DNA of 64,000 bases from Paradesertivirga mongoliensis (lineage in GTDB: Bacteria; Bacteroidota; Bacteroidia; Sphingobacteriales; Sphingobacteriaceae): the NCBI RefSeq assembly GCF_024436395.1, contig NZ_JAFMZO010000004.1, forward strand, positions 372,001-436,000. Direction: 5' to 3'. How positions within the stretch are numbered: the first letter of the stretch is position 1; every line of letters begins with the position of its first letter. The translations under genes and the position numbers were made by a program. Below are positions 1,968 to 27,648 of this stretch, piece by piece. The notes under the pieces were generated by a model. That model ran no database searches. It had not been told where the DNA came from and saw only the letters and a program-made list of their open reading frames with translations.

Positions 1968-1995
1968 TTAAAAACTGAACTTTAAAGATATCCAA

Positions 1996-3378
1996 ATGAA
2001 GAAAATCATTTTTTCAGGTCTAGTATTACTTACAGGAGTCAACAGTTTTGCCCAGCAACTTGCATTTCCCGGCGCAGAAGGGTACGGAAAGTTTACCGTC
2101 GGTGGCAGAGGGGGAAAGGTTTACGAAGTAACGAATCTAAACGACAGAGGAGAAGGAAGCTTACGGGCTGCTGTAGAAGCGTCCGGTCCGCGAACTGTTG
2201 TTTTCAGGGTGTCGGGTAATATAGAGCTCGAAAGTCCGGTAACCATTGAAAATCCATACGTTACTATTGCGGGTCAGACCGCGCCCGGCGATGGGATATG
2301 TTTGAAAAATCACCCTCTTGGTATCAATGCCGATCAGGTTATTGTCAGATACATCCGGGTACGACCCGGCGATGTATCCGGTAAGGATTACGATGCGGTT
2401 TCCAGCAGGTACACGAAGAATATCATATTGGATCATATATCAGCGAGCTGGAGTATCGACGAAGCTTTTTCGATTTACCATTGCGACAGTATTACGGTTC
2501 AATGGTGTTTGATTTCTGAAAGTTTGTACGGATCAAACCATGTAAAAGGAAGCCATGGATTCGGGGGTATTTGGGGTAGCAACTATAGCAGCTACCATCA
2601 TAATTTGTTGGCACACCATAGCAGCCGTAATCCCAGGATGGCATCTGGTGCTGGCTATACCGATTATAGAAACAACGTTATTTATAACTGGGGCTATAAC
2701 AGTCTGTATGGGGGCGAGGCTCAGCAAAAAGGAGCTAACCTGGGGAAGTTCAATTTTTCGACCTTTAATGTTGTGGCTAATTACTATAAACCAGGCCCGG
2801 CTACAAGAGCCGGAGAAATATCTTACCGGATTGCCAACCCAGGGGCCAGAAACGAAACCGATGACTTTGGCGAATGGTACATAGCGGATAATGTTGTGGT
2901 GGGCAATCCAGCGGTCTCGGCCAATAATTGGGAAGGAGGCGTACAAACAAAAATCTCTTTCGAAAGAATTAAACTTGATAAGCCCTGGCCATCTATGCAG
3001 ATCGGTCAACAAAGCGCTGAGGGTGCGTATCAGTTAGTACTCGAAAATGCGGGAGCCACTTTACCCCGGAGAGATGCCGTCGATTCCAGAGTTGTAAGTG
3101 AAACGAAGGGCGGTTATGCTACCTATGGCGGAGGATACAAGGCGGACCAGAAAGAGGGAGCTCTCTCGGGGAAATCAGGCATTATTGATTCACAGAAAGA
3201 TGTTGGCGGATGGCCTGAGTTGAAAAATTCGCCTGCACCAGAAGACACCGATCATGACGGGATGCCAGATGCATGGGAAAGTAAAAATGGCCTTAATCCA
3301 AAAAGCCCCGACGACAGAAATAAAGTAGCTGCTGATGGCTATACCATGCTGGAGAAGTTTCTTAACAGCATTAAGTAA
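1996..3378 (+). CDS. secreted pectate lyase, PL1-like
   Basis: A 460-residue protein expected to cut polygalacturonate by beta-elimination outside the cytoplasm. The signal peptide ends near residue 20 (SFAQQ). The mature start, LAFPGAEGYG then GGRGG, is typical of Bacteroidota PL1 lyases. Beta-helix landmarks follow: TIAGQTAPGDGI, VIVRYIRVRPGD, and the HHSSRNPR segment around the catalytic region. The C-terminus carries DTDHDGMPDAWE, a thrombospondin-type-3-like calcium motif also present in the lyases at 6326 and 58579. It starts 28 bp after the DUF1593 gene and ends 21 bp before the next one, so it is probably cotranscribed. The exact pectin type is not determined. Confidence 0.9.
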   Translation: MKKIIFSGLVLLTGVNSFAQQLAFPGAEGYGKFTVGGRGGKVYEVTNLNDRGEGSLRAAVEASGPRTVVFRVSGNIELESPVTIENPYVTIAGQTAPGDGICLKNHPLGINADQVIVRYIRVRPGDVSGKDYDAVSSRYTKNIILDHISASWSIDEAFSIYHCDSITVQWCLISESLYGSNHVKGSHGFGGIWGSNYSSYHHNLLAHHSSRNPRMASGAGYTDYRNNVIYNWGYNSLYGGEAQQKGANLGKFNFSTFNVVANYYKPGPATRAGEISYRIANPGARNETDDFGEWYIADNVVVGNPAVSANNWEGGVQTKISFERIKLDKPWPSMQIGQQSAEGAYQLVLENAGATLPRRDAVDSRVVSETKGGYATYGGGYKADQKEGALSGKSGIIDSQKDVGGWPELKNSPAPEDTDHDGMPDAWESKNGLNPKSPDDRNKVAADGYTMLEKFLNSIK

Positions 3379-3399
3379 AAGTAAGATATTGAGTTTAAT

Positions 3400-4827
3400 A
3401 TGTTAAAAATTAAAATGCGCCTTAGGCTGACTGTCATGATCCTGTTCCTCGCTGTATCTGCGAGTGCATTAGAGAAAAATCGTTTGTTTGTACTTACGGA
3501 TATTGGTGGTGATCCTGATGATCGCATGTCAATGGTGCGGCTCATGACCTATGCTAATCATTTTGACATCGAGGGACTTGTCGCCACTTCCTATGGAAGC
3601 GAGTACCGGATTTCTCCGGAATATCTTCACGAAATAATAGCTAATTACGGAAAGGTTCGTGATAATCTGGAACTGCATGAAAAAGGGTATCCCACCGCAG
3701 CATATCTACGGGAGCGCATTTCACAAGGACTATCACTGGATGGAATGCAGGCCGTTGGCAAAGGGAAGGACTCTCCCGGCTCCGAACTGCTGATACGTGC
3801 TGCAGATCAAAAAGACGACCGGCTTTTATGGGTAACGGTATGGGGTGGTCCCAATGTTCTTGCTCAGGCGCTCTGGAAAGTACGAGCCACAAGATCTCCG
3901 AAGGAACTGGCTAAATTTGTGGCCAGGTTGAGGGTGTACGCCATATCAGATCAGGACGACAGCGGTCCATGGATACGTAAAGAGTTTCCTGAACTTTTCT
4001 ACATTGTAACTCCGGGCGTCAATGCCGGCGGCGGTTTCCATCATGCAACATGGATCGCTATCGGCGGAGACAAATTTCATGGTCGCTTCGACGGAGCCGA
4101 CTTTTCGTTGGTGACCAATGAGTGGCTCGACAGAAATATCCGTAGCAAAGGGCCGCTCGGAGCTGTTTATCCCCGTTGGGAGTTTATGATGGAGGGCGAT
4201 ACACCTTCGTTTTTTCATCTGATCAATAATGGTCTGAGCAATCCCGAACGTCCGGATTGGGGAGGCTGGGGCGGTCGTTATGAACTATACACACCAAGGA
4301 AAGAAAAATGGTTTTTGGAACCAGAAAGCCGCCCCATCTGGACCAACGTGCAGGATGAAGTATTAGGTAACGATGGCGAATGGCACACCAGCAATCACGC
4401 CACTATCTGGCGCTGGCGTTCTGCCTATCAAAATGATTTTGCCGCTCGTATGGATTGGACCATTAAAGCCTACGATGAAGCAAATCATCCGCCGGTTCCA
4501 AAGCTTGATCATCCAAAAGAGATAACTGCCCGTCAGGGCGAACGTGTTAACCTTAGCGCTGTTAGTTCATCCGATCCTGACGGTAATGCACTTTCTTATG
4601 AATGGTTTTGCTATGGAGAGGCAGGTACACGGGCAATGTCGAACTCTCGTACAGGTGCGGTGTTAGATATTGAGAATTTTGACCAGCCGAAAGCCTCATT
4701 CATTGTTAAAACAAACCGTGTAATGTCGCCAGGAACGGGTACCATACATGTTATTCTTGCCGTTACTGACCACGGTACGCCCCGGCTAACCCGCTATCAG
4801 CGTGTAATAGTTAATGTAGTTCCATAG
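3400..4827 (+). CDS. secreted DUF1593 (Sde182-type) protein B
   Basis: A 475-residue paralogue of the proteins at 492 and 7672. A signal peptide (about 1-24) precedes [13 protein letters not shown] (Asp34, Asp38, Asp40, Asp41), the metal-binding loop in its canonical form, closer to true nucleoside hydrolases than SDGEIDDE of copy A. The C-terminal beta-sandwich starts at NHPPVPKL and ends [11 protein letters not shown], as in copy [13 protein letters not shown] motif is shared with the copy at 7672. The position between two lyase genes points to pectin oligosaccharide processing, but the substrate is unknown. Confidence 0.85.
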
Positions 4828-4955
4828 CTAGCAGGAGAGATATTAACAATGTATGTAAGAATGAGGGTACAAAAGATTGAGTCTTCGGAAAATATTATGT
4901 AATTCGTAGAGAATTAACCTAATCAGCTTAAAAAGCATGCAAAACATATCCAATT

Positions 4956-6248
4956 ATGTATAAGTATCGGTTAGTGTTGATTTTATTACTGTCCATGAGT
5001 TCATTTGCCTCGGTGGGTCAGAATCCTGTGCCGGTCAAACCCCGCATTATAGTCAGCACAGACATTGGCGGCACCGACCCCGACGACAATCAGTCGATGA
5101 TCCATCTACTAATGTATAGTGATAAGTTTGATATTGAAGGTCTGGTATCTTCACCATCATACGGAGATGGCAAAAAGGAGGAAATTCTGCGCACTATCGA
5201 TCTTTATGAGAAAGATCTTCCTAAAATGAAAACGCACATCAAAGGGATGGCTACTCCTGATTACCTGCGTTCAGTAACTAAACAAGGTCGTAAAGGCGGG
5301 GCTCCCTATCTCGGCTACACAACTGCAACGGAGGGTTCTAACTGGATTATTAAAAAGGCTAACGAAAAAAGTAACCGGCCGTTGTGGGTGCTCGTTTGGG
5401 GTGGCCTCGATGACTTAGCACAGGCCCTGCACGATGCTCCCGAAATTCAAAACAAGATTAAAGTGTACTGGATCGGTGGCCCCAACAAAAAATGGAGTAC
5501 CAACAGTTATGCCTATATAGCACAAAACTTTTCCGCTCTTTGGTTTATAGAATCTAATGCTGCCTACAGAGGCTTTTTTTCTGCCAATTCAACGCCGGAA
5601 AAACTGAGCGGTAAAAATTATTATGCCAATTATATTCGTGGAGCAGGTTACCTGGGCAAAGACTTTAAAAACAACCGCTACGAAGGTAACGTCAAAATGG
5701 GCGATACGCCTACATTACTTTACCTGATGGACGGCGATCCGGATAATCCGATGAGGGAAAATTGGGGAGGGAGCTATGAAAAACTCAGCCGCAGTCCGAG
5801 AATAGTTTATAACCGTAATACTACCCTGGCCGATACAGTACCGGTATACTCAATAGTTGAATTCAGCTTCAAAGGGCCAGAGGTGAATATACCGGTAGAT
5901 TCTGCATGTTTTACGATGGCTGTAAGCAACCAAAAATGGGATGGATTTTACCTTGGTAGCGGAAACTATGCGGTAAGGTACGCGCCAAAACAGAAGGAAA
6001 CACTCACGTATAAAGTAACCTCAACCATTCCGGGCTTTCAGGAGCATAGCGGAGCATTAGTGGTAAGTAATAGCTGGCCGGGTGAGCAATATCCTACAGA
6101 TTATTATTTAGGAGCTAGCTGGTTTACAGATAAGCCAGATCCCGAGTTGTTTGACGGCTTATGGCAGGGCGCCAAAACAGTGCTTAAATGGCGTAACGAT
6201 GTTTTACTGGATTGGGCAAAACGCTGGAAATGGCTTGCGGAAAAATAA
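4956..6248 (+). CDS. secreted DUF1593-like protein C with a divergent C-terminal half
   Basis: A 430-residue exported protein whose first ~270 residues match the DUF1593 nucleoside-hydrolase-like domain. After a signal peptide (about 1-22) comes STDIGGTDPDDNQS, with one extra Thr in the loop compared with copy B. The WGGLDDLAQALH and GGPNKKW segments correspond to other conserved family blocks. The end differs from its paralogues: there is no DPDG beta-sandwich ending in TRYQRV, but instead a FSFKGPEV segment and a Trp-rich tail (LKWRNDVLLDWAKRW). A 128-bp gap separates it from the previous gene, so it may have its own promoter. This looks like a distinct DUF1593 subfamily rather than a truncation. 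Confidence 0.78.
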   Translation: MYKYRLVLILLLSMSSFASVGQNPVPVKPRIIVSTDIGGTDPDDNQSMIHLLMYSDKFDIEGLVSSPSYGDGKKEEILRTIDLYEKDLPKMKTHIKGMATPDYLRSVTKQGRKGGAPYLGYTTATEGSNWIIKKANEKSNRPLWVLVWGGLDDLAQALHDAPEIQNKIKVYWIGGPNKKWSTNSYAYIAQNFSALWFIESNAAYRGFFSANSTPEKLSGKNYYANYIRGAGYLGKDFKNNRYEGNVKMGDTPTLLYLMDGDPDNPMRENWGGSYEKLSRSPRIVYNRNTTLADTVPVYSIVEFSFKGPEVNIPVDSACFTMAVSNQKWDGFYLGSGNYAVRYAPKQKETLTYKVTSTIPGFQEHSGALVVSNSWPGEQYPTDYYLGASWFTDKPDPELFDGLWQGAKTVLKWRNDVLLDWAKRWKWLAEK

Positions 6249-6325
6249 ACGGGATTTGATTTAAATCCGGCTGCAACCGGGAAGATGCCATTGATTTTTC
6301 AATGCTAAGGGATTAAAAATTTAAT

Positions 6326-7663
6326 ATGATGAAAAGGATATTTTATGGACTTGTTTTTTCTGTGTTACTGCAATCTGTTACTGCACAGCAACTTGCTTTT
6401 CCGGGCGCCGAGGGTTTTGGTGCTTACGCGAAAGGCGGACGTAGCGGAAAGGTTATTTACGTAACCAATCTGGATGATAGTGGCCCCGGTAGTTTGCGAT
6501 GGGCTGTGGATCAGGAAGGTCCGCGTACCATTGTGTTCGGAATATCCGGAACTATTGAACTTAAAAGCAGGTTGAACATCAACAGACCCTATATCACCAT
6601 TGCCGGACAAACCGCACCAGGAGAGGGTATTTGCCTAAAAGGTGAGACCCTGCAGATCAATACACATGACGTCATTGTCCGGTATATCCGTGTTCGTCTG
6701 GGTGATGGTTTGCATGGGCAGGGTAGTTTGCAGGGAAAGGACGCCATTAGTATTTCGGAAGGTCATGATATAATTGTGGATCATTGTTCGGCAAGCTGGA
6801 GCCTGGATGAAATATTGTCAACGTCTACCAGGAAGCCGGATCTTACCAGGGTGACCGTACAATGGTGCTTTATCACAGAAGGCCTTAATCCGGACAACCA
6901 CGGTTTTGGTTCACTGATTCGCGGAACAGGTGGGGCGAAGTATAGCTACCTTCACAATCTTTATGCGAATAACAGGGGTCGGAATCCTCGTCCCGGCAAC
7001 TATGATTCTAATCCGCACGACAAGGATCCACAGGGATTGCTGCTCGATTTCAGGAACAATGTTATCTATAACTGGGGAGGAGGACATGCTGGTTATAACG
7101 CCGATAAAGTAAGTGTTACAAACCTCAATTATGTAAACAACTACCTGGTTCCCGGAGCGGATTCTAAAACCGAAGGATTTGCATATTCTGAAGGTTCGCC
7201 TTATAACCGCGGCTATTTTGCGGGGAATTATTATAATGGCAAACTTCCTGGTAACCCATGGAGTGTGGTAAATTTTCCAAAAAGCTGGACGACCGAACAA
7301 ATCAGCGCTTACAAGCAGAACAAGCCATTGGGAACGGGGGCGTTGGATTCAGAAGATGCAGAGACTACATATAAACGTGTGCTTGAAAGGGGAGGAGCAA
7401 TTTTACCCAAACGGGATGCTGTTGATTCCCGTATAGTGAATGATATCCGGCGCCGAACAGGGAAGATCATCAAATCTCAGAACGATGTTGGAGCCTGGCC
7501 AAAACTAAGTTCAGCGACTCCACCTGCTGATACAGACCATGATGGGATGCCTGATAAATGGGAAAAGGAGAATAGCCTTGATCCGAAAAATCCGGAAGAC
7601 CGGAATAAAATAACTGAAGATGGCTACACGATGCTTGAAAAATATATTAACAGCATTCATTAA
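6326..7663 (+). CDS. secreted pectate lyase, PL1-like, second copy
   Basis: A 445-residue protein with a signal peptide (ending TAQQ near residue 21), then LAFPGAEGFG and GGRSGKVIYVTNL. TIAGQTAPGEGI, VIVRYIRVRLGD and NNRGRNPRPG are the same landmarks as in the lyase at 1996, and it ends with the same DTDHDGMPDKWE calcium motif plus DGYTMLEKY. Divergence between the two is clear (longer loops around the GLHGQGSLQG region), which suggests different chain-length or methylation preference rather than recent duplication. It is followed 8 bp later by a DUF1593 gene, repeating the lyase/DUF1593 pairing. Confidence 0.9.
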   Translation: MMKRIFYGLVFSVLLQSVTAQQLAFPGAEGFGAYAKGGRSGKVIYVTNLDDSGPGSLRWAVDQEGPRTIVFGISGTIELKSRLNINRPYITIAGQTAPGEGICLKGETLQINTHDVIVRYIRVRLGDGLHGQGSLQGKDAISISEGHDIIVDHCSASWSLDEILSTSTRKPDLTRVTVQWCFITEGLNPDNHGFGSLIRGTGGAKYSYLHNLYANNRGRNPRPGNYDSNPHDKDPQGLLLDFRNNVIYNWGGGHAGYNADKVSVTNLNYVNNYLVPGADSKTEGFAYSEGSPYNRGYFAGNYYNGKLPGNPWSVVNFPKSWTTEQISAYKQNKPLGTGALDSEDAETTYKRVLERGGAILPKRDAVDSRIVNDIRRRTGKIIKSQNDVGAWPKLSSATPPADTDHDGMPDKWEKENSLDPKNPEDRNKITEDGYTMLEKYINSIH

Positions 7664-7671
7664 CACCCATA

Positions 7672-9102
7672 ATGATGAATAAGATTTTGGTTGTTCTGTT
7701 TACATTCGTCATCAGCGGCACGTTTGCTCAGCAGCAGGCAGTTAAGACACGTGTGATCATCACGTCCGACGGAGAGATTGACGACGAATGTTCTATGGTA
7801 CGCTGCCTGCTGTATGCTAACGAGTGGGATATAGAAGGAATCGTAACTTCCAGTTCACAGTATCACTGGCGGGGCCACAAATGGGCAGGCGACGACTGGA
7901 TGAATCCTTATCTGGATGCCTATGAGAAAGTATACCCTAACCTGATTAAACACGACAAAGGCTATCCTACTCCACAATACCTTCGGGAGCGAACTGTGCT
8001 TGGGAACGTAAAAACAGAGGGCGAGATGGATGAGGTAACAGCCGGTTCGCAGCTTATCGTAAAAGAGTTGCTCGACAAAAGCGACAGTCGCCCGGTTTGG
8101 CTGCAGGCTTGGGGCGGCACTAACACCATTGCCAGGGCACTCAAAACTATTGAGCAGGAACACCCGGAACGCATGGAGGAAGTTGCTGCTAAAATGCGCC
8201 TTTATTTAATCTGGGAGCAGGACTCCACCTATCAATCGTATATCCGCCCGCATTGGGGTAAATACAAGATTTTAACCATCAACTCCGACCAGTTTGAAGC
8301 AATCGCTTATCGCTGGAAAGACACTCAACCCAAAGAAATACATCGCTTTTTTGAAGGTGCATGGATGAAGGAAAATATCCTGAACAACCACGGACCGCTC
8401 TGCTCACTTTACAAAGCTCACACCAAAAGTGACAAAGGTTTTGCTGAGGGCGATTTCCGCTCGGAGGGCGATTCGCCCGCTTTCATGCACACCATAGTTA
8501 CCGGCTTACGCAATCTGGAAAACCCCGATTGGGGCGGATGGGGCGGCCGTTATATTAAGGTTCGTGAAAATACATGGTATGATCCTGTGCCGGAAAAGGG
8601 GTATATATACCCTACGGGCCGCTGGTATGGAAGCAACGGATGGGGCAGAATGAGTTCAAAAAGAGGCGCCACAGCAGAAACAGATAGTAATCATCGCGCT
8701 TATTTTAAACCTATCTGGCGTTGGTCTGAGGCCTTTCAAAACGACTTTGCTGCAAGAGCAGACTGGTGTGTAAAGCCATATGAGGAAGCTAATCATGCAC
8801 CTGTACTAAAGTTGCGTGGGGATTTGGATCGAAAAGCAGAGCCTAATGATAAGGTTAAATTAAACGCTAAGAAAACGAAAGATCCTGATGACGATAAGCT
8901 TAGCTACCGCTGGTGGCAATATGTTGAAGCAGACAGCTACCAGGGCGGAGTAAGCATTTCGAATGCCAATAGCAAAAAAGCTTCTTTCACCGTTCCATCC
9001 GACATTAAAAAAGGGGAGACGCTTCATATTATTTGTGAGGTAAAAGATAATGGCACGCCACAGTTGACCAGGTATCAGCGGATAGTATTAACTGCTGAAT
9101 AA
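7672..9102 (+). CDS. secreted DUF1593 (Sde182-type) protein A'
   Basis: A 476-residue exported protein, very close to the one at 492 at both protein and DNA level: both have TSDGEIDDECSMVR, the SSSQYHW block, HDKGYPTPQYLRER and WLQAWGGTNTIARALK. The signal peptide ends at TFAQQ (about residue 21), with Asp33, Asp37 and Asp38 as predicted metal ligands. The C-terminal beta-sandwich (DPDDDK...LTRYQRIVL) is retained. Start ATG at 7672, 8 bp after the lyase stop, indicates tight coupling. The two A-type copies bracket the other DUF1593 and lyase genes, so the cluster reads A-PL1-B-C-PL1-A'. Confidence 0.87.
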   Translation: MMNKILVVLFTFVISGTFAQQQAVKTRVIITSDGEIDDECSMVRCLLYANEWDIEGIVTSSSQYHWRGHKWAGDDWMNPYLDAYEKVYPNLIKHDKGYPTPQYLRERTVLGNVKTEGEMDEVTAGSQLIVKELLDKSDSRPVWLQAWGGTNTIARALKTIEQEHPERMEEVAAKMRLYLIWEQDSTYQSYIRPHWGKYKILTINSDQFEAIAYRWKDTQPKEIHRFFEGAWMKENILNNHGPLCSLYKAHTKSDKGFAEGDFRSEGDSPAFMHTIVTGLRNLENPDWGGWGGRYIKVRENTWYDPVPEKGYIYPTGRWYGSNGWGRMSSKRGATAETDSNHRAYFKPIWRWSEAFQNDFAARADWCVKPYEEANHAPVLKLRGDLDRKAEPNDKVKLNAKKTKDPDDDKLSYRWWQYVEADSYQGGVSISNANSKKASFTVPSDIKKGETLHIICEVKDNGTPQLTRYQRIVLTAE

Positions 9103-9177
9103 TGGGCATGCCAATTCATAAACGATTATATTTTCCGGCTTTTTATCAATTTTAACAATCATATCTCAATAAAAATT

Positions 9178-10608
9178 ATGAGCCCCTTTACTTATACTCA
9201 CTATTCAATTTTGAAGGAAAAAAATCTCTCTGCGATAACGTGCAGACTCAAATCACTTCTAAGTTTTTTACTCCCTATTTTTCTTTCTGCCAGCTTATTC
9301 GCACAGGAGACTACTCCTGGCCGGGTACCGAGTTATCCCGTTCCGTATGAATTCCCTACTACAGACAGCATTAAAGGAGTGCTTCAGCGTGTCCGCTCGT
9401 ATTATGAAGCGACAAGTCCGCAAACGATCGTCAATTCCAAAACCGGAGAAAGAATAAAAGATTTTACGTCGTTCAACCCGCTGGCAATCCCTTCCAAAGG
9501 TTTCGCAAGTGAATGGTCGTACACACACGGTGTGGTGTTGTCTGCTTTCGACTATATATCAAAGGTAACAGGCGACGAAAGCTACGCTGCCCTTAATACC
9601 AGGTTTTACAACTATGTGGTGGATAACTTGCCTTACTTTGAAAAGGCTACTACGATAAAACCGGGGGAAAAAATAGGCAGCTGGGGACGTATTCTCCATT
9701 TTGAGGCGCTCGACGATTGTGGCTCCATTGGCGCGGCGATGATCAAAACCTATCAAAGGAATAAAAACGGTAAGTATCTTCCGGTTATAAACAGGGTAGA
9801 CGAGCATGTTTCCAAAAATCAGTTCCGCTTAACCGATGGAACTCTGGCTCGTAATCGTCCGCAGTATCAATCAGTTTGGGCTGATGATATGTATATGAGT
9901 GTCCCCTTCCTCACTAATATGGGAGTGTTAACAGGGAAGAAGAAGTATTTTGATGATGCCGCAAAGCAGGTGCTGCAAATGGGCGACAGATTGTATGTTC
10001 CCGGGAAAGAATTATTCGATCATGGCTGGAACCTAACTTCAGCCGCTTACGACCCACGGTTCTACTGGGGCCGTGCCAACGGCTGGTGTTTGATGGCGAT
10101 GGCAGAGCTCTTAAGTGCGATGCCCAAAGATCATCAGAGCCGGGATAAGATCCTTCATCTTTACCGCTCGATGGTGCGAAGCCTAGCCAGTCTGCAGGAC
10201 GGTACGGGGCACTGGCACAACCTGCTCGACAAACCCGATACTTATCTGGAAACTTCCTGCACAGCTATGTTTACTTACGCCATTGCAAAAGGCATTAATG
10301 AAGGATGGATCAGTCATGTTTATGGTCCGGTAGCGCTTACCGGCTGGAATGCAATTACCACCAAGGTTCTTCCCAATGGCGCTGTTGACGGCACCGTCGA
10401 GGGTACTACATTTGCCCACGACAATACGTACTATTACTACCGGGGAAAGAGTACGCAGGCTACACATGGGTATGGACCGGTCCTTTATGCCGGTGCCGAA
10501 ATGATTCGCCTGCTACAGAATGAGAAGTTGGAGATTCTGAAAGCAAAACCAAACGCGGTTAACAGCACCTATCATTTTCTCCTGAAAAGTGAATGGCCGA
10601 AAAAGTGA
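9178..10608 (+). CDS. GH105 unsaturated rhamnogalacturonyl/glucuronyl hydrolase
   Basis: A 476-residue (alpha/alpha)6-barrel enzyme that removes the 4,5-unsaturated uronic acid left on oligosaccharides by the lyases. The long N-terminus holds a signal peptide at residues 22-43 (SLLSFLLPIFLSASLFAQ). Family landmarks include the EWSYTHGVVLSAFDY helix, VWADDMYMSVPFL (the Asp thought to protonate the double bond), GRANGWCLMAMAELL and GHWHNLLD. The predicted start is ATG 9178; no closer in-frame ATG preserves the signal peptide. A 75-bp gap separates it from the DUF1593 gene. It is the natural partner of the upstream pectate lyases, acting in the periplasm. Confidence 0.88.
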   Translation: MSPFTYTHYSILKEKNLSAITCRLKSLLSFLLPIFLSASLFAQETTPGRVPSYPVPYEFPTTDSIKGVLQRVRSYYEATSPQTIVNSKTGERIKDFTSFNPLAIPSKGFASEWSYTHGVVLSAFDYISKVTGDESYAALNTRFYNYVVDNLPYFEKATTIKPGEKIGSWGRILHFEALDDCGSIGAAMIKTYQRNKNGKYLPVINRVDEHVSKNQFRLTDGTLARNRPQYQSVWADDMYMSVPFLTNMGVLTGKKKYFDDAAKQVLQMGDRLYVPGKELFDHGWNLTSAAYDPRFYWGRANGWCLMAMAELLSAMPKDHQSRDKILHLYRSMVRSLASLQDGTGHWHNLLDKPDTYLETSCTAMFTYAIAKGINEGWISHVYGPVALTGWNAITTKVLPNGAVDGTVEGTTFAHDNTYYYYRGKSTQATHGYGPVLYAGAEMIRLLQNEKLEILKAKPNAVNSTYHFLLKSEWPKK

Positions 10609-11527: not shown

Positions 11528-11585
11528 CCCCCCCTCAATATGTGGGTTTCCCCCCTTTTGCTTCCTTACTGTTCCTATAAATTTG
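11528..11585 (+). promoter_or_regulatory. PUL promoter with C6-22bp-C6 direct repeat and TAAATTTG -7 box
   Basis: C blocks at 11528-11534 and 11550-11555 are 22 bp apart, about two helical turns, with TGTGG at 11541. The second block runs into TTTG (11557-11560, a -33 element), followed 17 bp later by TAAATTTG (11578-11585), a perfect TAnnTTTG -7 box. The same layout occurs before the GH16-like gene at 27591-27648. Transcription would begin near 11592, giving a leader of about 185 nt for the susC-like gene. It is probably the target of the HTCS regulator encoded at 23370. The rest of the 11331-11777 gap shows nothing recognisable. Confidence 0.7.
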
Positions 11586-11777: not shown

Positions 11778-14700
11778 ATGAAGAAATTATTACAGAAAAA
11801 AGTTTCGCGGATTCTTGCGGTATTAACCTTATATGCTTTGATAGGAACAGACGCGTCTGCTAATGTCTTGGCCACAATGAGTTCCGCTCAGGATATTAGA
11901 ATTAAGGGAACGGTAACCGATAACAATGGTGACCCCTTGATAGGAGTGAGTGTAAAAGTAGAGAACTCACAAGCCGGAACAATCACAAACGTTAACGGAG
12001 ATTTTGAGTTCAGTGCTCCTGAAACAGGCATCTTGATATTCTCTTATATAGGATTTATGTCAAAAAAGATCCCGATAAATGGTAGAACCACTATCAATGT
12101 CAGCTTAGTACCCGATACCGAAAGTTTGAAAGAAGTGGTGGTGGTTGGGTACGGAACTCAAAAGAAAACTACTCTGACGGGAGCCATATCTACCATAGAC
12201 AATAAACAACTCGTTCAGTCTCCGGTCGCAAATATCAGTAATTCGCTGGCAGGCAGGCTTTCCGGAATAGTAGCTGTTCAGCAAAGCGGAGAGCCCGGGC
12301 AAGACCAGTCGCGGATTAAAATCCGGGGTATCGCTACATTATCTCAGGGTTTTGAATCGGATCCTTTGGTGATAGTAGATGGAGTGGAAAGAAACATGAA
12401 TCTTTTAGATCCCAATGAAATTGAGACAGTCAGCGCCCTTAAGGATGCATCGGCTACTGCGGTTTTTGGAGTGCGGGGGGCAAACGGCGTTATTATTATT
12501 ACAACCAAAACTGGCAAGATAGGGAAGCCTCAGATAAGCTATTCATCGAACTTTGGTATGCAGAATCCTACCCAGCTTCCAAAACTTCTGAATAGTTATG
12601 ATTACGCTACGCTTAGAAATGAAGCGCAGAAGAATATGGGACAAGCCCCTTATTTTTCATCCCAGGATCTTGAGACGTTTAAGAATGGAACGGATCCGAT
12701 ATTCCACCCGAATGTAAATTGGTTTGATGCGGTTTTAAAACCAAGCTCATTTCAACAGCAGCATAATTTTAATATTGGCGGGGGAGATAACAATACGAAG
12801 TACTTTATTTCTTTGGGGTATTTTGATCAAAACGGCTCATATGACGTAGGCGAGTTACAGAAAGAGTATTCTGCTAACCCCCGGTATAAACGGTATAATA
12901 TCCGGTCGAACTTTGATGTCAATTTTACTAAAGACTTTTCTGCTTCGATCAAACTTGGCGGTCAGATTGCCGACGTAAATTATCCTGGAGTTCCGGCTGG
13001 CGAAATATTTTTTAGAGTGTTGAACACCAACCCTATGATGAACCCGGGAGTGGTTGATGGGAAATTGATAAGCAGTGTGGATGGTCTTCCAAGCTCTTCC
13101 GGCAATCCCCTTGGCTTCCTCGCTACAAGCGGGTACCAGAATAATTTTAATAGCACCATAAACACCAATATAGGCCTGCAGCACAAACTGGATTTCATTA
13201 CCTCCGGGCTGAAAGTGAGAGGAGCCTTGGCTTACGATAGTTATTACCAACATAGAGTAAGCCGTCAAAAGTCTAGTCTTCAATACAGAATTGTGAAAGA
13301 CCCTTCCGATCCAAGCCGGCCGGTGTACCTACAGGACGGTGAAGAAGCTCCCTTTGGCTTTTCAGAAGGATACAATAGATGGAGAAAAATATACAGCGAG
13401 CTGGCTACCGAATACGCACGCAGTTTCGGAGGGCATAATGTTACCGGGCTGGTATTATACAATCTGGAGAAAATCCATAATCCAGATACCTATAATGGCG
13501 TGGGGTATGAGTTTGCCGAAATTCCAAGAGCTTACATGGGGCTGGTTGGCCGGGTAACCTATAACTTCAAAAGCCGTTACCTCACCGAAATGAACATGGG
13601 ATATAATGGTTCGGAAAATTTCCCCGAAAACAAGCGTTTCGGCTTTTTTCCTTCCTTCTCCCTTGGCTGGGTGCTTACAGAAGAACCCTTCATCCCGAAG
13701 AATAATATACTTTCCTTATTGAAAATTCGGGGAACCTACGGTGAGGTGGGAAATGATAGATTAGGTTCTCAGCGGTTTATGTACAGGCCCGATACTTATG
13801 TATACGGAGGTGGTTATTACTTTGGAGAGGTTGGGACTAATTACCAGTTTTATAACGGAGCAAGAGAAGGCCGCCTCGGTAACCCCGATATCACATGGGA
13901 AAGAGCGAAAAAGTCCAATATCGGTTTTGATGCAAAGTTTTTTAATGAAAAATTAAGTGTCACAGGAGACTTTTTCCGGGAGAAACGAGATAATATTCTT
14001 TGGAATCTCCAAACAGTTCCAGACCTGGTTCAGGCCACTTTGCCGGCTGCCAATATTGGAAAAGTAGACAATGAGGGCTTTGAATTTGATGCCGGATTTA
14101 ATAACAGTGTCCGAAAATTAAATTACTGGGTAAAAGCAAATTATTCCTTCTCAAAAAACAAAATTGTCTATCAGGATGAGCCTCCCCGTGCCTATCCATG
14201 GTTGCAGCGAACGGGTCAGCCGGTAGGACAGTACTTTGGTTTAGTGAATGAAGGCTTTTATAATACTGCAGAAGAATTGGCGGCTGCTCCTAAATCAGCA
14301 TGGACCAATCAATTGCAATTGGGCGACATCAAATACAAAGATCTCAATCTGGATGGCGTTATCAACGACAACGATATGACGGCGATCGGACATTCGACCT
14401 TCCCGCAAATCACGTACGGAATTTCCACCGGATTCGATTTTAAGGGATTTGATTTTTCTGTCCTTTTCCAGGGAGCAAGCAAGGTGTCAACTTATTTAAG
14501 TGAAATGGCTGCCTGGGCTTTTGATACAGACTGGCGGAGTGCACAATCCCGCATACATGATCGTTGGACTCCGGAGCGATATGCAGCCGGCGAAACCATC
14601 AGTTATCCGAGATTGGAGCTTTCTCCAACGCAAGGCAAGCATAATTACAGACCCTCAGATTTTTGGCTTGTTGATGGAAGTTATATACGCTTAAAAAACA

Positions 14701-14894
14701 TGGAAGTTGCTTATCGCTTTCAGGGGAATGCCCTGAGAAGAGTTGGCGTGAAATCTTTGAGGGTTTTCACTAATGGTAACAACCTGATCACCTGGAGCAA
14801 GATCAAAAATTACGATCCTGAAGCTCCCGCGGGAAGAGGACAGTTCTACCCTCAAATGAAAGTCTACAATTTCGGAGCAAGTTTACAATTCTAA
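11778..14894 (+). CDS. SusC-like TonB-dependent outer-membrane transporter 1
   Basis: A 1038-residue importer of oligosaccharides. After a signal peptide (to about residue 30) comes a carboxypeptidase-D-like regulatory domain (IKGTVTDNNGDPLIGVSV, about 41-115), a TonB box/plug start at EVVVVGYGTQKK, and the SusC plug signature with GRLSGI, IKIRGI and ALKDASATAVFGVRGANGV. The remainder is a 22-strand barrel ending in an aromatic residue (FGASLQF). The next gene starts 7 bp downstream and encodes its SusD partner. With lyases and GH105 nearby the cargo is probably unsaturated pectin oligosaccharide. It is the first gene after the C6-repeat promoter. Confidence 0.95.
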   Translation: MKKLLQKKVSRILAVLTLYALIGTDASANVLATMSSAQDIRIKGTVTDNNGDPLIGVSVKVENSQAGTITNVNGDFEFSAPETGILIFSYIGFMSKKIPINGRTTINVSLVPDTESLKEVVVVGYGTQKKTTLTGAISTIDNKQLVQSPVANISNSLAGRLSGIVAVQQSGEPGQDQSRIKIRGIATLSQGFESDPLVIVDGVERNMNLLDPNEIETVSALKDASATAVFGVRGANGVIIITTKTGKIGKPQISYSSNFGMQNPTQLPKLLNSYDYATLRNEAQKNMGQAPYFSSQDLETFKNGTDPIFHPNVNWFDAVLKPSSFQQQHNFNIGGGDNNTKYFISLGYFDQNGSYDVGELQKEYSANPRYKRYNIRSNFDVNFTKDFSASIKLGGQIADVNYPGVPAGEIFFRVLNTNPMMNPGVVDGKLISSVDGLPSSSGNPLGFLATSGYQNNFNSTINTNIGLQHKLDFITSGLKVRGALAYDSYYQHRVSRQKSSLQYRIVKDPSDPSRPVYLQDGEEAPFGFSEGYNRWRKIYSELATEYARSFGGHNVTGLVLYNLEKIHNPDTYNGVGYEFAEIPRAYMGLVGRVTYNFKSRYLTEMNMGYNGSENFPENKRFGFFPSFSLGWVLTEEPFIPKNNILSLLKIRGTYGEVGNDRLGSQRFMYRPDTYVYGGGYYFGEVGTNYQFYNGAREGRLGNPDITWERAKKSNIGFDAKFFNEKLSVTGDFFREKRDNILWNLQTVPDLVQATLPAANIGKVDNEGFEFDAGFNNSVRKLNYWVKANYSFSKNKIVYQDEPPRAYPWLQRTGQPVGQYFGLVNEGFYNTAEELAAAPKSAWTNQLQLGDIKYKDLNLDGVINDNDMTAIGHSTFPQITYGISTGFDFKGFDFSVLFQGASKVSTYLSEMAAWAFDTDWRSAQSRIHDRWTPERYAAGETISYPRLELSPTQGKHNYRPSDFWLVDGSYIRLKNMEVAYRFQGNALRRVGVKSLRVFTNGNNLITWSKIKNYDPEAPAGRGQFYPQMKVYNFGASLQF

Positions 14895-14901
14895 AAATAT
14901 T

Positions 14902-16653
14902 ATGAAAAGACTAAAGATAACAGCGGGAACTATGTGTTTCCTTTTATTGAGCGGATTTTTGCTTTCATGTAATAAGGATTTTCTTGAAAAGCCCTTGAGC
15001 AGTGATGTAACTATCGACACAATTTTTTCTACGAAGGTAAAAGCGGAAAGTTTTTTATGGGAAACTTATCGTACCAGCGTTCCTCAGGGCTTTCCACATG
15101 ACTGGGGTGCCGATGGAAGAGAGAATCACCATGATGGAATGTACGCATCCATGTTGATGGCAGCTAGCGATGAAGGGGATGTTTATGACAGCTGGCCGAG
15201 TTCCAATGTGCATAATGTTGGTTCCTGGAGCCCAAACTACAACGCCGAGGATCAGTTTGGATATCACTATAAAGGGATTAGGAATGCTAGTCTATTTATA
15301 GAAAATATTGGCAGGGTATCAGACATCTCTGAGACTGAAAAGCAACAGATGCGGGCAGAGGCAGTCGTGCTCCGTGCGCTTCAATATTCGGAGTTATTGA
15401 AGAGATATGGTGGAATACCTTTGGTGCTTCATTCGTTGAAGGCAACAGGTAACGTAAAAATCCCCAGGAGTTCTTTTCAGGAGTGCGTCGACTTTATAGT
15501 GAAAAGCTGTGATAGTGCAGCAGCTGTTCTTCCTCAAACTTACCCCAAAGCAAGTCGTGGCAGAATTACCAGCGGAACAGCATTGGCAGTAAAAGCAAGA
15601 ACGCTTTTATATGCAGCAAGCCCATTACACAATGGCACTCCTTACCTCGACGACCAAAAGAAACTAACAGGATATGGAAATTTTGACGTCCAAAGATGGC
15701 AATTGGCAGCCGACGCTAATAAGGCCGTACTCGACTGGGCCGCTGATAATGGTGTAGAGCTGGTAAAAACACATGCAGATCCTGCTATGAATTATGAGGC
15801 AGCGATAGCACAAACAGATAATTCGGAAATTATTCTTGCTAATAAAGGTGAAGGTTCATGGGGAGACTGGTGGCCTATGACTGGCCAATTTCTCATGCCA
15901 AGAGGTTTTTACGGGGGATGGTATGGCCATGGGGTAACACTTCAACATGCGCAAAAATATCAGACAACAGCAGGTGTCGATCAGGTATGGGACACTCAGG
16001 GCTCTTTTGCTGAATTTGTTCAAAAAATGCAGGAAATGGAACCTCGCTTCCAGCAATCAGTTTTTTATTCTGGTGGAAAATGGAATGATGAACTCGGCGT
16101 TCGGGAGTTTTTCAAAAGGTCGAACGGAAGCTGGACGGGCGGAGCTCCTGTCAACGGAGTTGGCTTTATGAAGAAATTCCTGACCAGAGATAGATGGGGC
16201 GATACCTATCAGCAATGGATAGTGTTTCGTCTGGCAGAATTTTATCTGAATTATGCAGAGGCGCTAAATGAAGTTACTCCAATGGCTGCCGAATCTTATT
16301 CTGCTTTAAATAAAATCAGGGAACGTGCAGGCGTGCCTCTAATTCTACCGGCCGATCCAAGATACAACTCTCAGGAAAAATTACGAGCAGCAATCAGACG
16401 TGAACGGGCCGTAGAACTCGCTTTCGAAGAGCACCGGTTTTTTGATGTGCGGCGTTGGAAGATTGCAGGAGAAGAGGGTGTTATGAAAGGCCAGATGTGG
16501 GGGCTGAATGTCTATGAACAAGCCGATGGAAGCAAAATATACAAAAAGGAGCCCTTCGAAAATAGAGTTTGGGAAGATAAAATGTATTTGTATCCAATAC
16601 CACAATCAGAGATCGATAAGGGCTACGTAATCCAGACACCGGGCTGGCTTTAA
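14902..16653 (+). CDS. SusD-like glycan-binding lipoprotein 1
   Basis: A 583-residue surface lipoprotein that caps the SusC barrel and captures glycan. A type II signal peptide has the lipobox LLSC (Cys23), followed by NKDFLEKPLS, the standard SusD opening. The TPR-like helical core includes AEAVVLRALQYSELLKRYGG and AEFYLNYAEALNEV. The C-terminal RagB/SusD signature is RRERAVELAFEEHRFFDVRRW, ending in DKMYLYPIPQSEIDK. It lies 7 bp after the susC-like gene and 23 bp before the second one, so all four genes probably form one transcript. Confidence 0.94.
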   Translation: MKRLKITAGTMCFLLLSGFLLSCNKDFLEKPLSSDVTIDTIFSTKVKAESFLWETYRTSVPQGFPHDWGADGRENHHDGMYASMLMAASDEGDVYDSWPSSNVHNVGSWSPNYNAEDQFGYHYKGIRNASLFIENIGRVSDISETEKQQMRAEAVVLRALQYSELLKRYGGIPLVLHSLKATGNVKIPRSSFQECVDFIVKSCDSAAAVLPQTYPKASRGRITSGTALAVKARTLLYAASPLHNGTPYLDDQKKLTGYGNFDVQRWQLAADANKAVLDWAADNGVELVKTHADPAMNYEAAIAQTDNSEIILANKGEGSWGDWWPMTGQFLMPRGFYGGWYGHGVTLQHAQKYQTTAGVDQVWDTQGSFAEFVQKMQEMEPRFQQSVFYSGGKWNDELGVREFFKRSNGSWTGGAPVNGVGFMKKFLTRDRWGDTYQQWIVFRLAEFYLNYAEALNEVTPMAAESYSALNKIRERAGVPLILPADPRYNSQEKLRAAIRRERAVELAFEEHRFFDVRRWKIAGEEGVMKGQMWGLNVYEQADGSKIYKKEPFENRVWEDKMYLYPIPQSEIDKGYVIQTPGWL

Positions 16654-16676: not shown

Positions 16677-19670
16677 ATGAATAAAATATTTATACAATTA
16701 AATCTTGTTCTGGCCATTCTCTTAGGCTGTACCAATATAAGCAATGCCCAAATCTCTGTATCGGGTACTGTTAAGAACAAAAATGGCAGGGGCTTATCAA
16801 GTGTTAATATTGTTGATGCTAAAAATGGAACCGAATACAAAACTGATGAAACCGGGAGCTTTATAATTCAGGTGCGTGATTCTACCACATTGGTGTTTAA
16901 AAAGGCAGGCTATATTACTCAGGAGCATCTTTTTTTTCTGTCTGCAAATAAACGGGATATAGTGCTTGTAGAAGAACACGCAGGTAGAGACAAAGTGAGT
17001 GTTGCTTATGGCACTCAAAATTTTCAGCAGCTCACCTCCGCCATCTCAACAGTCGGTTCCGAAACACTTCGTAAAACTCCTGCGGCTACATTAAGCAATA
17101 CACTTTACGGCAGATTGCCAGGCTTAACGGTAATGCAGACTTCTGCCGAGCCCGGATATGACGCTCCCGCCATGTTTATCAGGGGAAAGGGGACTTATCA
17201 GAATAACTCTTTGCTGATTTTTGTCGATGGCTTTGAAAGTTCCTTTGATCAATTAGCGGTAGATGAGATTGAGAGTGTTTCGGTATTAAAAGATGCCGCG
17301 GCATTGTCTTTATACGGTATTAGAGGTGCAAATGGCGCGATTCTGGTAACCACAAAAAGGGGCGGGATCGGTAAAACTAAAATAACCTTAAATGCTCGAA
17401 CCGGCACCCAAGAGCCATCCAGACTTCCTCAGTCTGTAAGTGCCTATGATTATGCGCGACTTTATAATGAAGCTCTGACCAATGATAATTTAACCGGACA
17501 GTACTCAGCTGCTGCTCTCGAGGCTTATAGAACCGGATCCGACCCTAACAGATATCCGAATGTGAATTGGTACGACGAAGTTTTGCGCAAAAGTGCTCCC
17601 TTAAGTGATTATAGCTTAACCTTTCAGGGCGGAAATACAAATGCTAAATATTTTATACTGTTAGGGTATTTAAACAACCAGGGACTGTATGCTAACACTG
17701 ATAAAAAGCCGGTTGCTAACTCCAATGCAAACTTCAAAAAATACAATTTTCGGTCTAATATCGATTTAACACTGAATAAAATAGTATCGGCTTCTTTTGA
17801 TCTTGGCGGTCGATTGGAAGACAGGGCTTTTCCTAATTACGACGGTCCGACTTTGTGGAACAATTTAGCAAGGTACCCATCGAATATTTATCCTGTCAAG
17901 TATCCAAATCAGGCATGGGCCGGAAATGCTGTTTATACGGATAACCCTGTAGCTGCAGTGCTGGGGAGAGGTTATAGAACTTCAAACGACCGCAACTTAA
18001 ACGCCACTATGCGAATTACCGAAGATCTCGGGTTTCTCCTTCAGGGCTTGAAATTTAGTCAGTTAATGTCTTTGAACAATTGGCACCGGGGAAACTACAA
18101 CAGAACCAGATCGCTGTCTTATAGTGAAATGAGTGTCGTAACTAATCCGGCTGGCGAGGAATCTATCGTATATCAGAATAGGGGAAATACTAGCGACTAT
18201 TCAGTAGATCGGGGAGGGAATGATCAATGGAATCGTTCAAATTTCCAGTTGGCCTTGAATTACGATAAGTTGATAAAAGAACATGGATTATCGGCTATGT
18301 TGATGTACCATCAGGACGTGCTGAAAGTTAGCGGGAATGATGTGGATTATGCCACCCAAAATATCGCAGGCCGCTTCAACTATAGTTATCAATCCAAGTA
18401 TTTCACAGAACTTGGATTTTCGTATAGCGGATCTGAAAGCTTCGCCAAAGGCAACCGCTTCGGATTCTTTCCGGCACTATCAGCAGGCTGGTTGCTTAGC
18501 AATGAGAACTTTTTAAATACAAGCAAAGTTGTTGATTTCTTAAAGCTACGGGCCTCCGCCGGTCTCGTGGGGAATGACAGGTTAGCAGGCCGGAGATTTG
18601 CCTATGAGCAGGATTTCTACTATTCTGGTGGTTATAACCTCGGAGCAAATAATACGGTATGGGGAGCAATAGTTGAGGGGCCGTTGGGCAATCCGAATAT
18701 AACCTTCGAAAAATCCCTGAAATACAATATGGGGGTTGATGCCACATTATTAAAGCGCCTGGATATAACTCTCGACCTGTTTTCGGAAACTCGTTCTGAT
18801 ATTCTCGCCACAAGCGACGGCTCTGTGCCTTCCTATGTTGGAGTGCCTACGTCATTCCAGAATTTGGGAAAAGTTAATAATCGTGGTTTCGAGCTCGACC
18901 TGAAGTTTAATAGTAAAATCAGTGATTTTAGCTATTATATCCAGGCCGGAGCTTCTATGGCGCGGAACAAAATTATAGAGATGAATGAAATCTCCCGGCC
19001 GGAAGAGTATATGAAACGGACCGGGCACGCAATAGATCAATATTTCGGACTTGAAGCACTAGGCCTTTTCAATAGTTATGATGAGATTTCGGCCAGTCCT
19101 GTTCAGTCTTTTTCACCGGTTCAGCCTGGCGACATAAGATATAAGGATCAAAATGGCGATGGCTTTATTAATGAATATGATGAAGTTTCTCTTGGTTCCA
19201 GTTCTTATCCCGAGTTAACCTACACCACCACCCTGGGAGCTAAGTTTAAGGGATTACACCTTGAACTGTTTTTTCATGGTATTACCAATCGTAATGTTTT
19301 TACCAGTGGGACTTATTTTTGGGCTCTGATAAATAATAATAACGTAACACAAAATGCTTTAAACAGGTGGACTCCGGAAAACGCTGCTAATGCCACTTAT
19401 CCGAGGTTAACAACACTCCCGAATGAGAATAATTATCGGACCTCATCATTTTGGATGAAGTCAGGAAGCGTGTTACGGCTTAGAAATATTGAACTAGGCT
19501 ATTCTCTTGCCCCAAACCTGCTTAAGCATCTCAGGATTTCGTCTGCAAGATTTTTTGTTTCTGGTGTGAATCTTTTTACCTGGGATAAAATCAAAACAGT
19601 TGATCCCGAAGGTATGGGAGGATATCCTCCGTTGAAATCATATAACGCCGGTCTTCAGGTTCAATTTTAA
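16677..19670 (+). CDS. SusC-like TonB-dependent outer-membrane transporter 2
   Basis: A 997-residue paralogue of the transporter at 11778 and clearly diverged from it. Signal peptide to about residue 24 (SNAQ), regulatory domain from VSGTVKNKNGRGLSSVNIV, plug with VAYGTQNFQQLTSAIST, GRLPGLTV and VLKDAAALSLYGIRGANGA, then the barrel ending YNAGLQVQF. The usual VVVGYG of the plug is VSVAYG here. Two non-identical SusC/D pairs in one operon suggest import of two oligosaccharide classes, for example backbone and side-chain products. That division is inference. Confidence 0.94.
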   Translation: MNKIFIQLNLVLAILLGCTNISNAQISVSGTVKNKNGRGLSSVNIVDAKNGTEYKTDETGSFIIQVRDSTTLVFKKAGYITQEHLFFLSANKRDIVLVEEHAGRDKVSVAYGTQNFQQLTSAISTVGSETLRKTPAATLSNTLYGRLPGLTVMQTSAEPGYDAPAMFIRGKGTYQNNSLLIFVDGFESSFDQLAVDEIESVSVLKDAAALSLYGIRGANGAILVTTKRGGIGKTKITLNARTGTQEPSRLPQSVSAYDYARLYNEALTNDNLTGQYSAAALEAYRTGSDPNRYPNVNWYDEVLRKSAPLSDYSLTFQGGNTNAKYFILLGYLNNQGLYANTDKKPVANSNANFKKYNFRSNIDLTLNKIVSASFDLGGRLEDRAFPNYDGPTLWNNLARYPSNIYPVKYPNQAWAGNAVYTDNPVAAVLGRGYRTSNDRNLNATMRITEDLGFLLQGLKFSQLMSLNNWHRGNYNRTRSLSYSEMSVVTNPAGEESIVYQNRGNTSDYSVDRGGNDQWNRSNFQLALNYDKLIKEHGLSAMLMYHQDVLKVSGNDVDYATQNIAGRFNYSYQSKYFTELGFSYSGSESFAKGNRFGFFPALSAGWLLSNENFLNTSKVVDFLKLRASAGLVGNDRLAGRRFAYEQDFYYSGGYNLGANNTVWGAIVEGPLGNPNITFEKSLKYNMGVDATLLKRLDITLDLFSETRSDILATSDGSVPSYVGVPTSFQNLGKVNNRGFELDLKFNSKISDFSYYIQAGASMARNKIIEMNEISRPEEYMKRTGHAIDQYFGLEALGLFNSYDEISASPVQSFSPVQPGDIRYKDQNGDGFINEYDEVSLGSSSYPELTYTTTLGAKFKGLHLELFFHGITNRNVFTSGTYFWALINNNNVTQNALNRWTPENAANATYPRLTTLPNENNYRTSSFWMKSGSVLRLRNIELGYSLAPNLLKHLRISSARFFVSGVNLFTWDKIKTVDPEGMGGYPPLKSYNAGLQVQF

Positions 19671-19693
19671 TAATCGACTTAACATATAAAGTG

Positions 19694-21361
19694 ATGAAAA
19701 AATATTATTTATATATCTATGCCATAATCTCAGTACTCGCAATATCTTGTGATAAAGAGTTTCTCGATAGAAAGCTCGACACAAATTACGGCGAAGAGCA
19801 GGTGTTTTCTTCTTATACCCCGATGCGTGATTTTGGTATAGCTATATATACCTCGTTGCCCGAAGGGTTCAACAGAATTGATGCCGCGTTTTTAGCTTCC
19901 GCCACCGACGATGCGGTGCATTCGGGTACAGCAACCACCATTCAGCGGTTTAATAATGGTAGTTGGGGTCCTTTCATTAACCCGGATGACCAATGGGCGA
20001 GATTATATACAGGTGTTCGAAAAGCTAACTTTTTTCTCGAAAAGACGGTGGATTATAAAAACGTTCTCTACCGCGATACCATTACCGCAGCTGGAAAAAC
20101 TAATTACAATAATCAAATTAATGATATAAAATGGTTACGCGCCGAGGCGCGCTTTTTAAGAGCATATTTTTACTTCGAGCTTTTAAAGAGGTATGGTGGT
20201 GTTCCACTTATACTTACCACAATGTCAGCAGATGAATCTCCCCGCCCCAGGAATACCTTTAACGAGTGTGCCAACTTTATCGTAACAGAGATTGACGCGA
20301 TCAACAATGAGTTAAGGAACACATGGAGTGATCTGAATAGTGGCAATCAGATTGGCAGAGCTACCAAAGGGGCTGCACTAGCTCTAAAGTCCAGAGTTCT
20401 TTTGTACGCTGCCAGTCCTTTAAATAATCCGGCAAATGACTTACAAAAATGGGTCAGTGCCGCTGATGCTGCAAAAGCCGTAATAGCTCTTAATAGATAT
20501 TCGTTATTGGCAAACTACAGAGACTTGTTTCGATCCATGTCTAATAACGAATTTATCTTCGAACGCCGGTATTCTGCATCTAACAACTTAGAGCGTACAA
20601 CCTTTCCCGCAGGATTTGACGGAGCTGTTGGTGGAATAAATCCATCTCAAAATTTGATAGATTCTTATGAGACCACAAATGGGTTACCTGTTAATGCCGA
20701 CCCCTCGTATAATAGTCAGAATCCCTATGTCAACAGAGATCCGCGTCTCTTGATGACCGTTATCGTTAATGGTTCTACCTATAAAGGCAGGCCCGTAGAA
20801 GCCTGGATAGGAGGTAAAGACGGCCTTGGGAAACCGAGAGCTACCCGAACCGGCTACTACCTTAAGAAGTTTGCCGACGAAGGACTTGATCTGTCGCTCA
20901 ATCGTACGAGTAATCATGCCTGGGTATATTTCAGATACGCTGAAATTCTGTTGAATTATGCTGAGGCAATGAATGAAGCATATGGTCCTGATGTAACGCC
21001 TGCCGGATATACATTATCGGCCCGACAAGCAATCAATCTTGTGCGCAAAAGATCGTCGGTAAATATGCCAAATGTGATCGCCTCCTCTCAACCAGAATTT
21101 CGGGAAAAGGTTAGGAATGAAAGGCGGGTGGAGTTAGCTTTCGAAGAACATCGTTTCTGGGATGTTCGTCGCTGGAGGATAGGGCAGGTGTTTGCTTCTC
21201 CTGTTTATGGAATGAAAATTCTCAAAAACGGAACCTCGTTCTCCTTTGAAAAAACTCCGGTGGAGAACAGGGTATTCGAAGATAAAATGTATTTGTATCC
21301 AATTCCAGGAGCGGAAATAGATAAAGCCGGGGGAAGCTTGACGCAGAATCCTCAGTGGTAA
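19694..21361 (+). CDS. SusD-like glycan-binding lipoprotein 2
   Basis: A 555-residue lipoprotein partner of the second SusC. The lipobox is LAISC (Cys about 19), followed by DKEFLDRKLD. The SusD helical core has EARFLRAYFYFELLKRYGGVPL and WVYFRYAEILLNYAEAMNEA. The C-terminal signature is RRVELAFEEHRFWDVRRW, ending DKMYLYPIPGAEID. ATG at 19694 is preferred over the GTG codon just before it (19691). It lies 23 bp after the susC-like gene. Confidence 0.93.
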   Translation: MKKYYLYIYAIISVLAISCDKEFLDRKLDTNYGEEQVFSSYTPMRDFGIAIYTSLPEGFNRIDAAFLASATDDAVHSGTATTIQRFNNGSWGPFINPDDQWARLYTGVRKANFFLEKTVDYKNVLYRDTITAAGKTNYNNQINDIKWLRAEARFLRAYFYFELLKRYGGVPLILTTMSADESPRPRNTFNECANFIVTEIDAINNELRNTWSDLNSGNQIGRATKGAALALKSRVLLYAASPLNNPANDLQKWVSAADAAKAVIALNRYSLLANYRDLFRSMSNNEFIFERRYSASNNLERTTFPAGFDGAVGGINPSQNLIDSYETTNGLPVNADPSYNSQNPYVNRDPRLLMTVIVNGSTYKGRPVEAWIGGKDGLGKPRATRTGYYLKKFADEGLDLSLNRTSNHAWVYFRYAEILLNYAEAMNEAYGPDVTPAGYTLSARQAINLVRKRSSVNMPNVIASSQPEFREKVRNERRVELAFEEHRFWDVRRWRIGQVFASPVYGMKILKNGTSFSFEKTPVENRVFEDKMYLYPIPGAEIDKAGGSLTQNPQW

Positions 21362-23291: not shown

Positions 23292-23369
23292 TGAAATTAT
23301 AAACCATTTAACTTTATTATTCAAACTTGTTAATCAGAACCCATCAGTTCGCCCTTGAAGGAAAGAACC

Positions 23370-27590: not shown

Positions 27591-27648
27591 CCCCCCTTGT
27601 AATTGTGGTAATCCCCCCTTCCGATTTGGAAAAACAGTACAATATTTG
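27591..27648 (+). promoter_or_regulatory. second PUL promoter with C6-22bp-C6 direct repeat
   Basis: C6 blocks at 27591-27596 and 27613-27618 are 22 bp apart, with TGTGG at 27604, nine bases before the second block exactly as at 11541. AATATTTG (27641-27648) is a near -7 box, and its TTTG starts 32 bp after the second C block, identical to the first promoter. Predicted transcription start is near 27655, about 41 nt before the GH16-like gene. Confidence 0.65.

Follow-up and report, generated by a model that had tools for sequence, protein, structure and literature searches.

Gene content of the locus

The window, that is, the whole 64-kb stretch of Paradesertivirga mongoliensis DNA analyzed here, contains two susCD pairs, a gene for a right-handed beta-helix protein, a hybrid two-component system (HTCS) regulator gene and a GH16-like gene. 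In Bacteroidota, glycans are sensed mainly by HTCSs. The genes concerned are as follows.

11778-14894, + strand: susC1, TonB-linked SusC/RagA receptor, the first operon gene behind site 1
14902-16653, + strand: susD1
16677-19670, + strand: susC2
19691-21361, + strand: susD2
21384-23015, + strand: right-handed beta-helix protein, a distant relative of lacto-N-biosidase chains
23370-27437, + strand: HTCS regulator, 1355 aa
27696-28616, + strand: GH16-like predicted lipoprotein (weak Pfam match, below the curated cut-off), the predicted second target of the box described below

These genes make up two transcription units with the same switch, namely susC1-susD1-susC2-susD2-beta-helix and GH16, with the HTCS gene between them. 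Pfam placed the periplasmic Reg_prop propeller, Y_Y_Y, HisKA, HATPase, receiver and AraC-type HTH of the regulator all in one chain, the arrangement that identifies an HTCS; its open reading frame has an alternative start, TTG at 23355. A PDB search with the GH16-like protein gave no match. Further upstream, positions 492-10608 are occupied by four Sde182-like proteins interleaved with two PelZ-like proteins and a GH88 enzyme. No intergenic C-pair of the kind described below was found in this group within the window, and it looks like a pectin-type gene group that has undergone repeated duplication and is controlled by other means.

A C-tract direct repeat ahead of susC1

The intergenic region ahead of susC1 contains site 1, which reads GCCCCCCCTCAATATGTGGGTTTCCCCCCTTTTGCTTCCTTACTGTTCCTATAAATTTG by direct inspection of the sequence and is composed of the following features.

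11528-11534, + strand: C block 1, C7, candidate first half-site, in the context TTTTTAGCCCCCCCTC
11541-11545, + strand: TGTGG, between the blocks
11550-11555, + strand: C block 2, C6, candidate second half-site, starting 22 bp after the start of block 1
11557-11560, + strand: TTTG, -33-like
11578-11585, + strand: TAAATTTG, the -7 box, a full match to TAnnTTTG at +28 from block 2

A sequence-only reading of this DNA had described two C6 blocks spaced 22 bp; the start-to-start spacing is correct, but the first block is C7. The same reading had described TTTG followed after 17 bp by TAAATTTG, and this layout was confirmed at 11557-11585. The susC1 start (11778) lies 192 bp downstream of TAAATTTG, and transcription is expected to start a few bases downstream of 11585.

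We examined how often such features occur. The pattern C6-N14..20-C6 matched 3 times, with overlap, at 2 places within the 64-kb window, against 0.05 expected, and 0 of 100 shuffles reached the window count; across the whole 4.55-Mb genome, the same 2 places were found and no other. The + strand of the 64 kb contains five runs of C>=6, four of which form the two pairs. The promoter-like elements by themselves did not stand out: TTTG-N15..21-TANNTTTG was seen 2 times against 2.8 expected, and TTTG-N17-TAAATTTG without the C repeat was no better than chance. Taken alone, the -33/-7 pair of site 1 does not exceed chance; the C repeat is what makes the site. Random occurrence of the motif away from PULs, which the sequence-only reading had named as the observation that would speak against it, was searched for with the C6-C6 form, which proved to be confined to its own locus, and the outcome did not refute the reading.

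The other place, a copy that the earlier reading had not listed (27591-27648 including its box), is site 2.

27591-27618, + strand: site 2, C6 (27591-27596) and C6 (27613-27618), 22 bp start to start, with TGTGG at 27604-27608
27641-27648, + strand: AATATTTG, the -7-like box of site 2, 5/6 consensus letters, at +28 from block 2

Site 2 lies between the HTCS gene and the GH16-like gene, 77 bp ahead of the start codon of the latter, and has the same register as site 1 (spacing 22, TGTGG at -9 from block 2 and the -7-like box at +28). Its transcription start is expected a few bases downstream of 27648.

Conservation in other genera

Relatives of SusD2 were used to obtain named loci with the same double-susCD arrangement. 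These orthologous loci contain a double susCD, often with beta-helix and GH16 genes, together with an HTCS. Pairs of C4+ blocks 20-23 bp apart were present ahead of susC1 in Pedobacter sp. B4-66, Parapedobacter soli, Fulvivirga, Algoriphagus locisalis and four Chitinophaga species; the blocks in relatives are mere C4-C5, two per site. A C-pair likewise precedes the GH16 relatives of Sphingobacterium, Fulvivirga and other family genomes, at a distance of 36-150 bp in several genomes. In three partly overlapping locus sets, the spacing of C-runs showed a peak at 20-23 bp in non-coding DNA (6 pairs in the own set, 19 in the named loci and 10 in the family loci, versus about 0.2-0.9 per other spacing), whereas coding DNA was flat.

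These data bear on whether the blocks could be chance C-runs in an intergenic region. Short C-runs do occur elsewhere, and the chance-level frequency of the -33/-7 pair fits such an origin; against it, 0.05 matches were expected and two places were found, both in the locus, and the repeat shows both the spacing peak and conservation across genera. The spacing peak already refutes chance for the class of sites, and a chance origin hardly deserves credit.

Architecture of the site class

We next aligned 38 sites, which were picked for C4+ at both blocks, so that the block letters are given by construction. The consensus is a TTTACCCC(C)T direct repeat with a [T/C]AnnTTTG-like box at +26..+28 and with TTTA ahead of each block, and the spacing is 20-23 bp, mostly 22 bp. 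In 19/38 sites, the interval +25..+29 from block 2 contains a box with at least 5/6 letters of TAnnTTTG, compared with 9% of shuffles, and the window sites have 6/6 (site 1) and 5/6 (site 2). The best -7-like match fell at +26..+28 in 35/38 sites within a search window of +23..+30, although many of these boxes are imperfect. The geometry is thus of the class II type, with a site that overlaps or abuts the -33 region at a near-fixed distance to the -7 box.

Two elements of the sequence-only reading turned out to be less general. The -33 box that it had proposed is present as TTTG at site 1, but no TTTG stands at the same place in site 2 or in most relatives; with 4/38 sites carrying it and 34/38 lacking it, it is not a regular part of the architecture. 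Promoters of the sigma-ABfr type in Bacteroidota have TTTG at -33 and TAnnTTTG at -7 (PMC7366714). Site 1 is like them in its perfect -7 box and its TTTG at -33, whereas at site 2 and most related sites the -33 box is missing and the second C block is there instead. The TGTGG between the blocks is common to both window copies, but it is private to the window, is not conserved in relatives and was rejected as a part of the motif. A search for CCCCC-N8-TGTGG-N4-CCCCC with <=1 mismatch in 151 family genomes gave few matches, 10 in 7 genomes with the window sites accounting for two, against 7 for the reversed control, and most of the matches had no -7 box.

Searches with the bare pattern gave little beyond the PUL promoters. 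ACCCC pairs at 17-29 bp start to start, counted genome-wide with no position filter, numbered 25 versus 35 in the reversed control, and a loose C4/C4/TAnnTTTG pattern allowing 3 mismatches was no more frequent than its control; C4 blocks mean little away from PUL promoters. A class-wide search for the exact C-pair with a perfect -7 box showed modest enrichment (30/395 genomes versus 17 for the reversed control). In the own genome, a perfect C-pair with TAnnTTTG was also observed ahead of rpsL-, rpsG- and fusA-like genes of a str operon (L234, G000:C3:725407-725462, - strand), which is probably chance or an unrelated use. The bare pattern is therefore a poor genome-wide predictor, and it is informative at PUL promoters adjoining an HTCS of the window clade.

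Association with the DNA-binding-domain clade of the regulator

In a larger comparison, 30 loci containing the DNA-binding-domain clade of the window HTCS were set against 30 loci of another clade, seeded by an HTCS of the own genome (L198). A C-pair at 20-23 bp scored as non-coding, anywhere in 20 kb, was found in 20/30 same-clade loci versus 3/30 loci of the other clade (P=1.1e-5; related loci lack statistical independence, so P values here are indicative only). Two of the 20 (L312 and L336) probably lie in the first codons of a susC and were scored as non-coding because the first 75 bases of every ORF had been left unmasked at its start. A cleaner test is the count in the 350 bp after the HTCS stop. 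Here, same-clade loci gave 16/30 strict matches on the coding strand versus 0/30 on the opposite strand, and 24/30 versus 1/30 with relaxed C3/C4 blocks, whereas the other clade gave 1/30 strict and 5/30 relaxed. At least 4/30 same-clade loci (L297, L299, L303 and L345) had no recognizable copy next to the HTCS. Nor is the box restricted to the clade, since repeats of this type also occur in some other-clade loci (L346, L349 and L353). Several residues of the HTH region, e.g. K1274, R1286, D1315, R1320 and Q1322, are kept by the clade and lacking in the other one; as a speculation, they might read the G-tract of the opposite strand.

The own genome showed a similar association. C-pairs also occur in the loci of the two HTCSs whose DNA-binding domains come next in similarity (69% and 54% identity), and almost none of the other HTCS loci has them. 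The exception is an HTCS of 36% identity beside C-pairs that are here assigned to the 54% one; counting this assignment, which is a judgement, the numbers are 3/3 versus 0/15 (P=0.001). At that place, two C-pairs (L196:965 and L196:1541) lie between the immediately adjacent HTCS with the dissimilar domain and a susC operon, which is followed by the window-clade HTCS (L195:6609-10724), two sensors flanking one promoter.

One alternative treats the C blocks, together with the -7 box, as a feature of the promoter or start region without a dedicated regulator, such as a C-rich element read by a sigma factor or RNA polymerase, a G-quadruplex or a hairpin. The near-fixed distance of the C-tracts from the -7-like box and isolated matches at non-PUL genes such as the str operon would be consistent with it, but the pairs track PUL genes and the DNA-binding-domain clade of the adjacent HTCS. 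Moreover, a G-quadruplex or attenuator was rejected, since two runs per site, of C4-C5 in relatives, are too few for a standard G-quadruplex and transcription from the expected start would not include a repeat located ahead of it. Taken together, we regard a regulator-free feature as very improbable.

A second alternative accepts a regulator of this clade but takes the main user to be a paralogous HTCS from another part of the genome, either the one on C2 (about 1.058-1.062 Mb) or the one on C3 (about 0.751-0.755 Mb), which would work in trans or alongside the local one. In its favor, the genome has three HTCSs of the clade, all with C-pairs in their loci, and the C2 locus has a paralogous beta-helix gene behind its C-pair (L193:9824, - strand). 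In addition, orphan C-pairs stand ahead of a GH16 paralog (L201:8976; C4:197 kb) and of a susC without a nearby clade HTCS (L205:9226; C3:375 kb), both of which are possible trans targets. On the other hand, the local HTCS gene lies between both window sites, the C6-C6 form with TGTGG is unique to the locus, and predicted HTCS regulons are mostly local according to Ravcheev 2013 (PMC3878776). A paralogue as the main user is therefore unlikely. The C2 HTCS (L193:9904-13998) is 59% identical overall to that of the window; no SusC/SusD match to those of the window was seen within the 20 kb of its locus that was covered, and this locus may work with the window locus.

A predicted operator of the local HTCS

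Overall, the C7/C6 direct repeat is very probably the operator of the HTCS encoded at 23370-27437. The sequence-only reading had assigned site 1 to this regulator, and the prediction has been strengthened by the second copy in identical register at the next transcription unit with none elsewhere in the genome, by C-pairs upstream of orthologous susC genes in several genera, by a peak in C-run spacing at 21-22 bp that is seen in non-coding DNA only, and by co-occurrence with the DNA-binding-domain clade of this HTCS and not with another. The repeat, its spacing and rarity, the second copy, the cross-genus conservation, the clade link and the fixed distance to a -7-like box are all computed results, and they are consistent with the following scheme. 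On sensing its glycan, the HTCS would become phosphorylated, and two AraC-type DNA-binding domains would bind in tandem on one helix face, two turns apart, each contacting a TTTACCCC(C)T-like half-site of the coding strand. The downstream half-site would occupy the -33 region, so that the regulator stands in for the -33 box and directs RNA polymerase to TAAATTTG, the -7 box that lies 28 bp further downstream, in a class II-like activation. The same switch at 27591-27618 would turn on the gene for the GH16-like enzyme, giving a two-promoter regulon. We infer activation as opposed to repression. The substitution for -33 contacts is proposed because HTCS domains are thought to bind direct repeats of ~21 bp and because EMSA shows binding to susC promoters.

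This arrangement resembles known predictions. Ravcheev 2013 (PMC3878776) describes predicted Bacteroides HTCS operators as two direct-repeat sites about 21 bp apart upstream of susCD and next to the HTCS gene. The spacing is interpreted there as the footprint of a dimer whose two halves sit on one DNA face, two turns from each other, and similar DNA-binding domains are stated to go with similar motifs. The window sites share with the operators described there the direct-repeat architecture with a ~21-bp period (22 bp at both sites), the susCD and HTCS context, with susC1 and the GH16-like gene downstream and the HTCS at 23370-27437 in the locus, the conservation in orthologous loci of other species, and a motif that tracks DNA-binding-domain similarity. 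What may differ is the C-tract half-site TTTACCCC(C)T, which occurs here across Sphingobacteriaceae, Chitinophaga and Cytophagales, the comparison with the published motifs being one of architecture. The near-fixed offset to a -7-like box was measured here for the C-tract sites.

The predicted HTCS operators found by our literature search came from Bacteroides only. A tentative and rather doubtful extension is that the CCCC-22-CCCC box forms a shared regulatory code, used by one clade over several Bacteroidota orders, with several paralogous HTCSs per genome reading the same operators. If so, HTCSs could cross-regulate each other's loci as well as the orphan targets on C4 and C3, forming a network of glycan sensors instead of strictly local switches. 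With a simple operator that is recognizable in sequence and belongs to one clade, regulons could be read directly from the genomes of soil and aquatic Bacteroidota, including non-PUL targets, and the present locus offers a two-promoter system for testing HTCS-DNA recognition and replacement of the -33 box.

With respect to binding, EMSA has demonstrated it for AraC-type HTCS DNA-binding domains on susC promoters with predicted sites: response-regulator fragments of BT4124 and BT4663 bind the bt4114 and bt4662 promoters (PMC11253607). The window HTCS has the same protein architecture, whereas those proteins belong to other glycan systems and its own binding is a prediction from sequence. Its receiver also differs, reading NHIP where the published consensus is S/CHIP, a position tied to inhibition between the receiver and the DNA-binding domain in HTCSs (PMC11253607).
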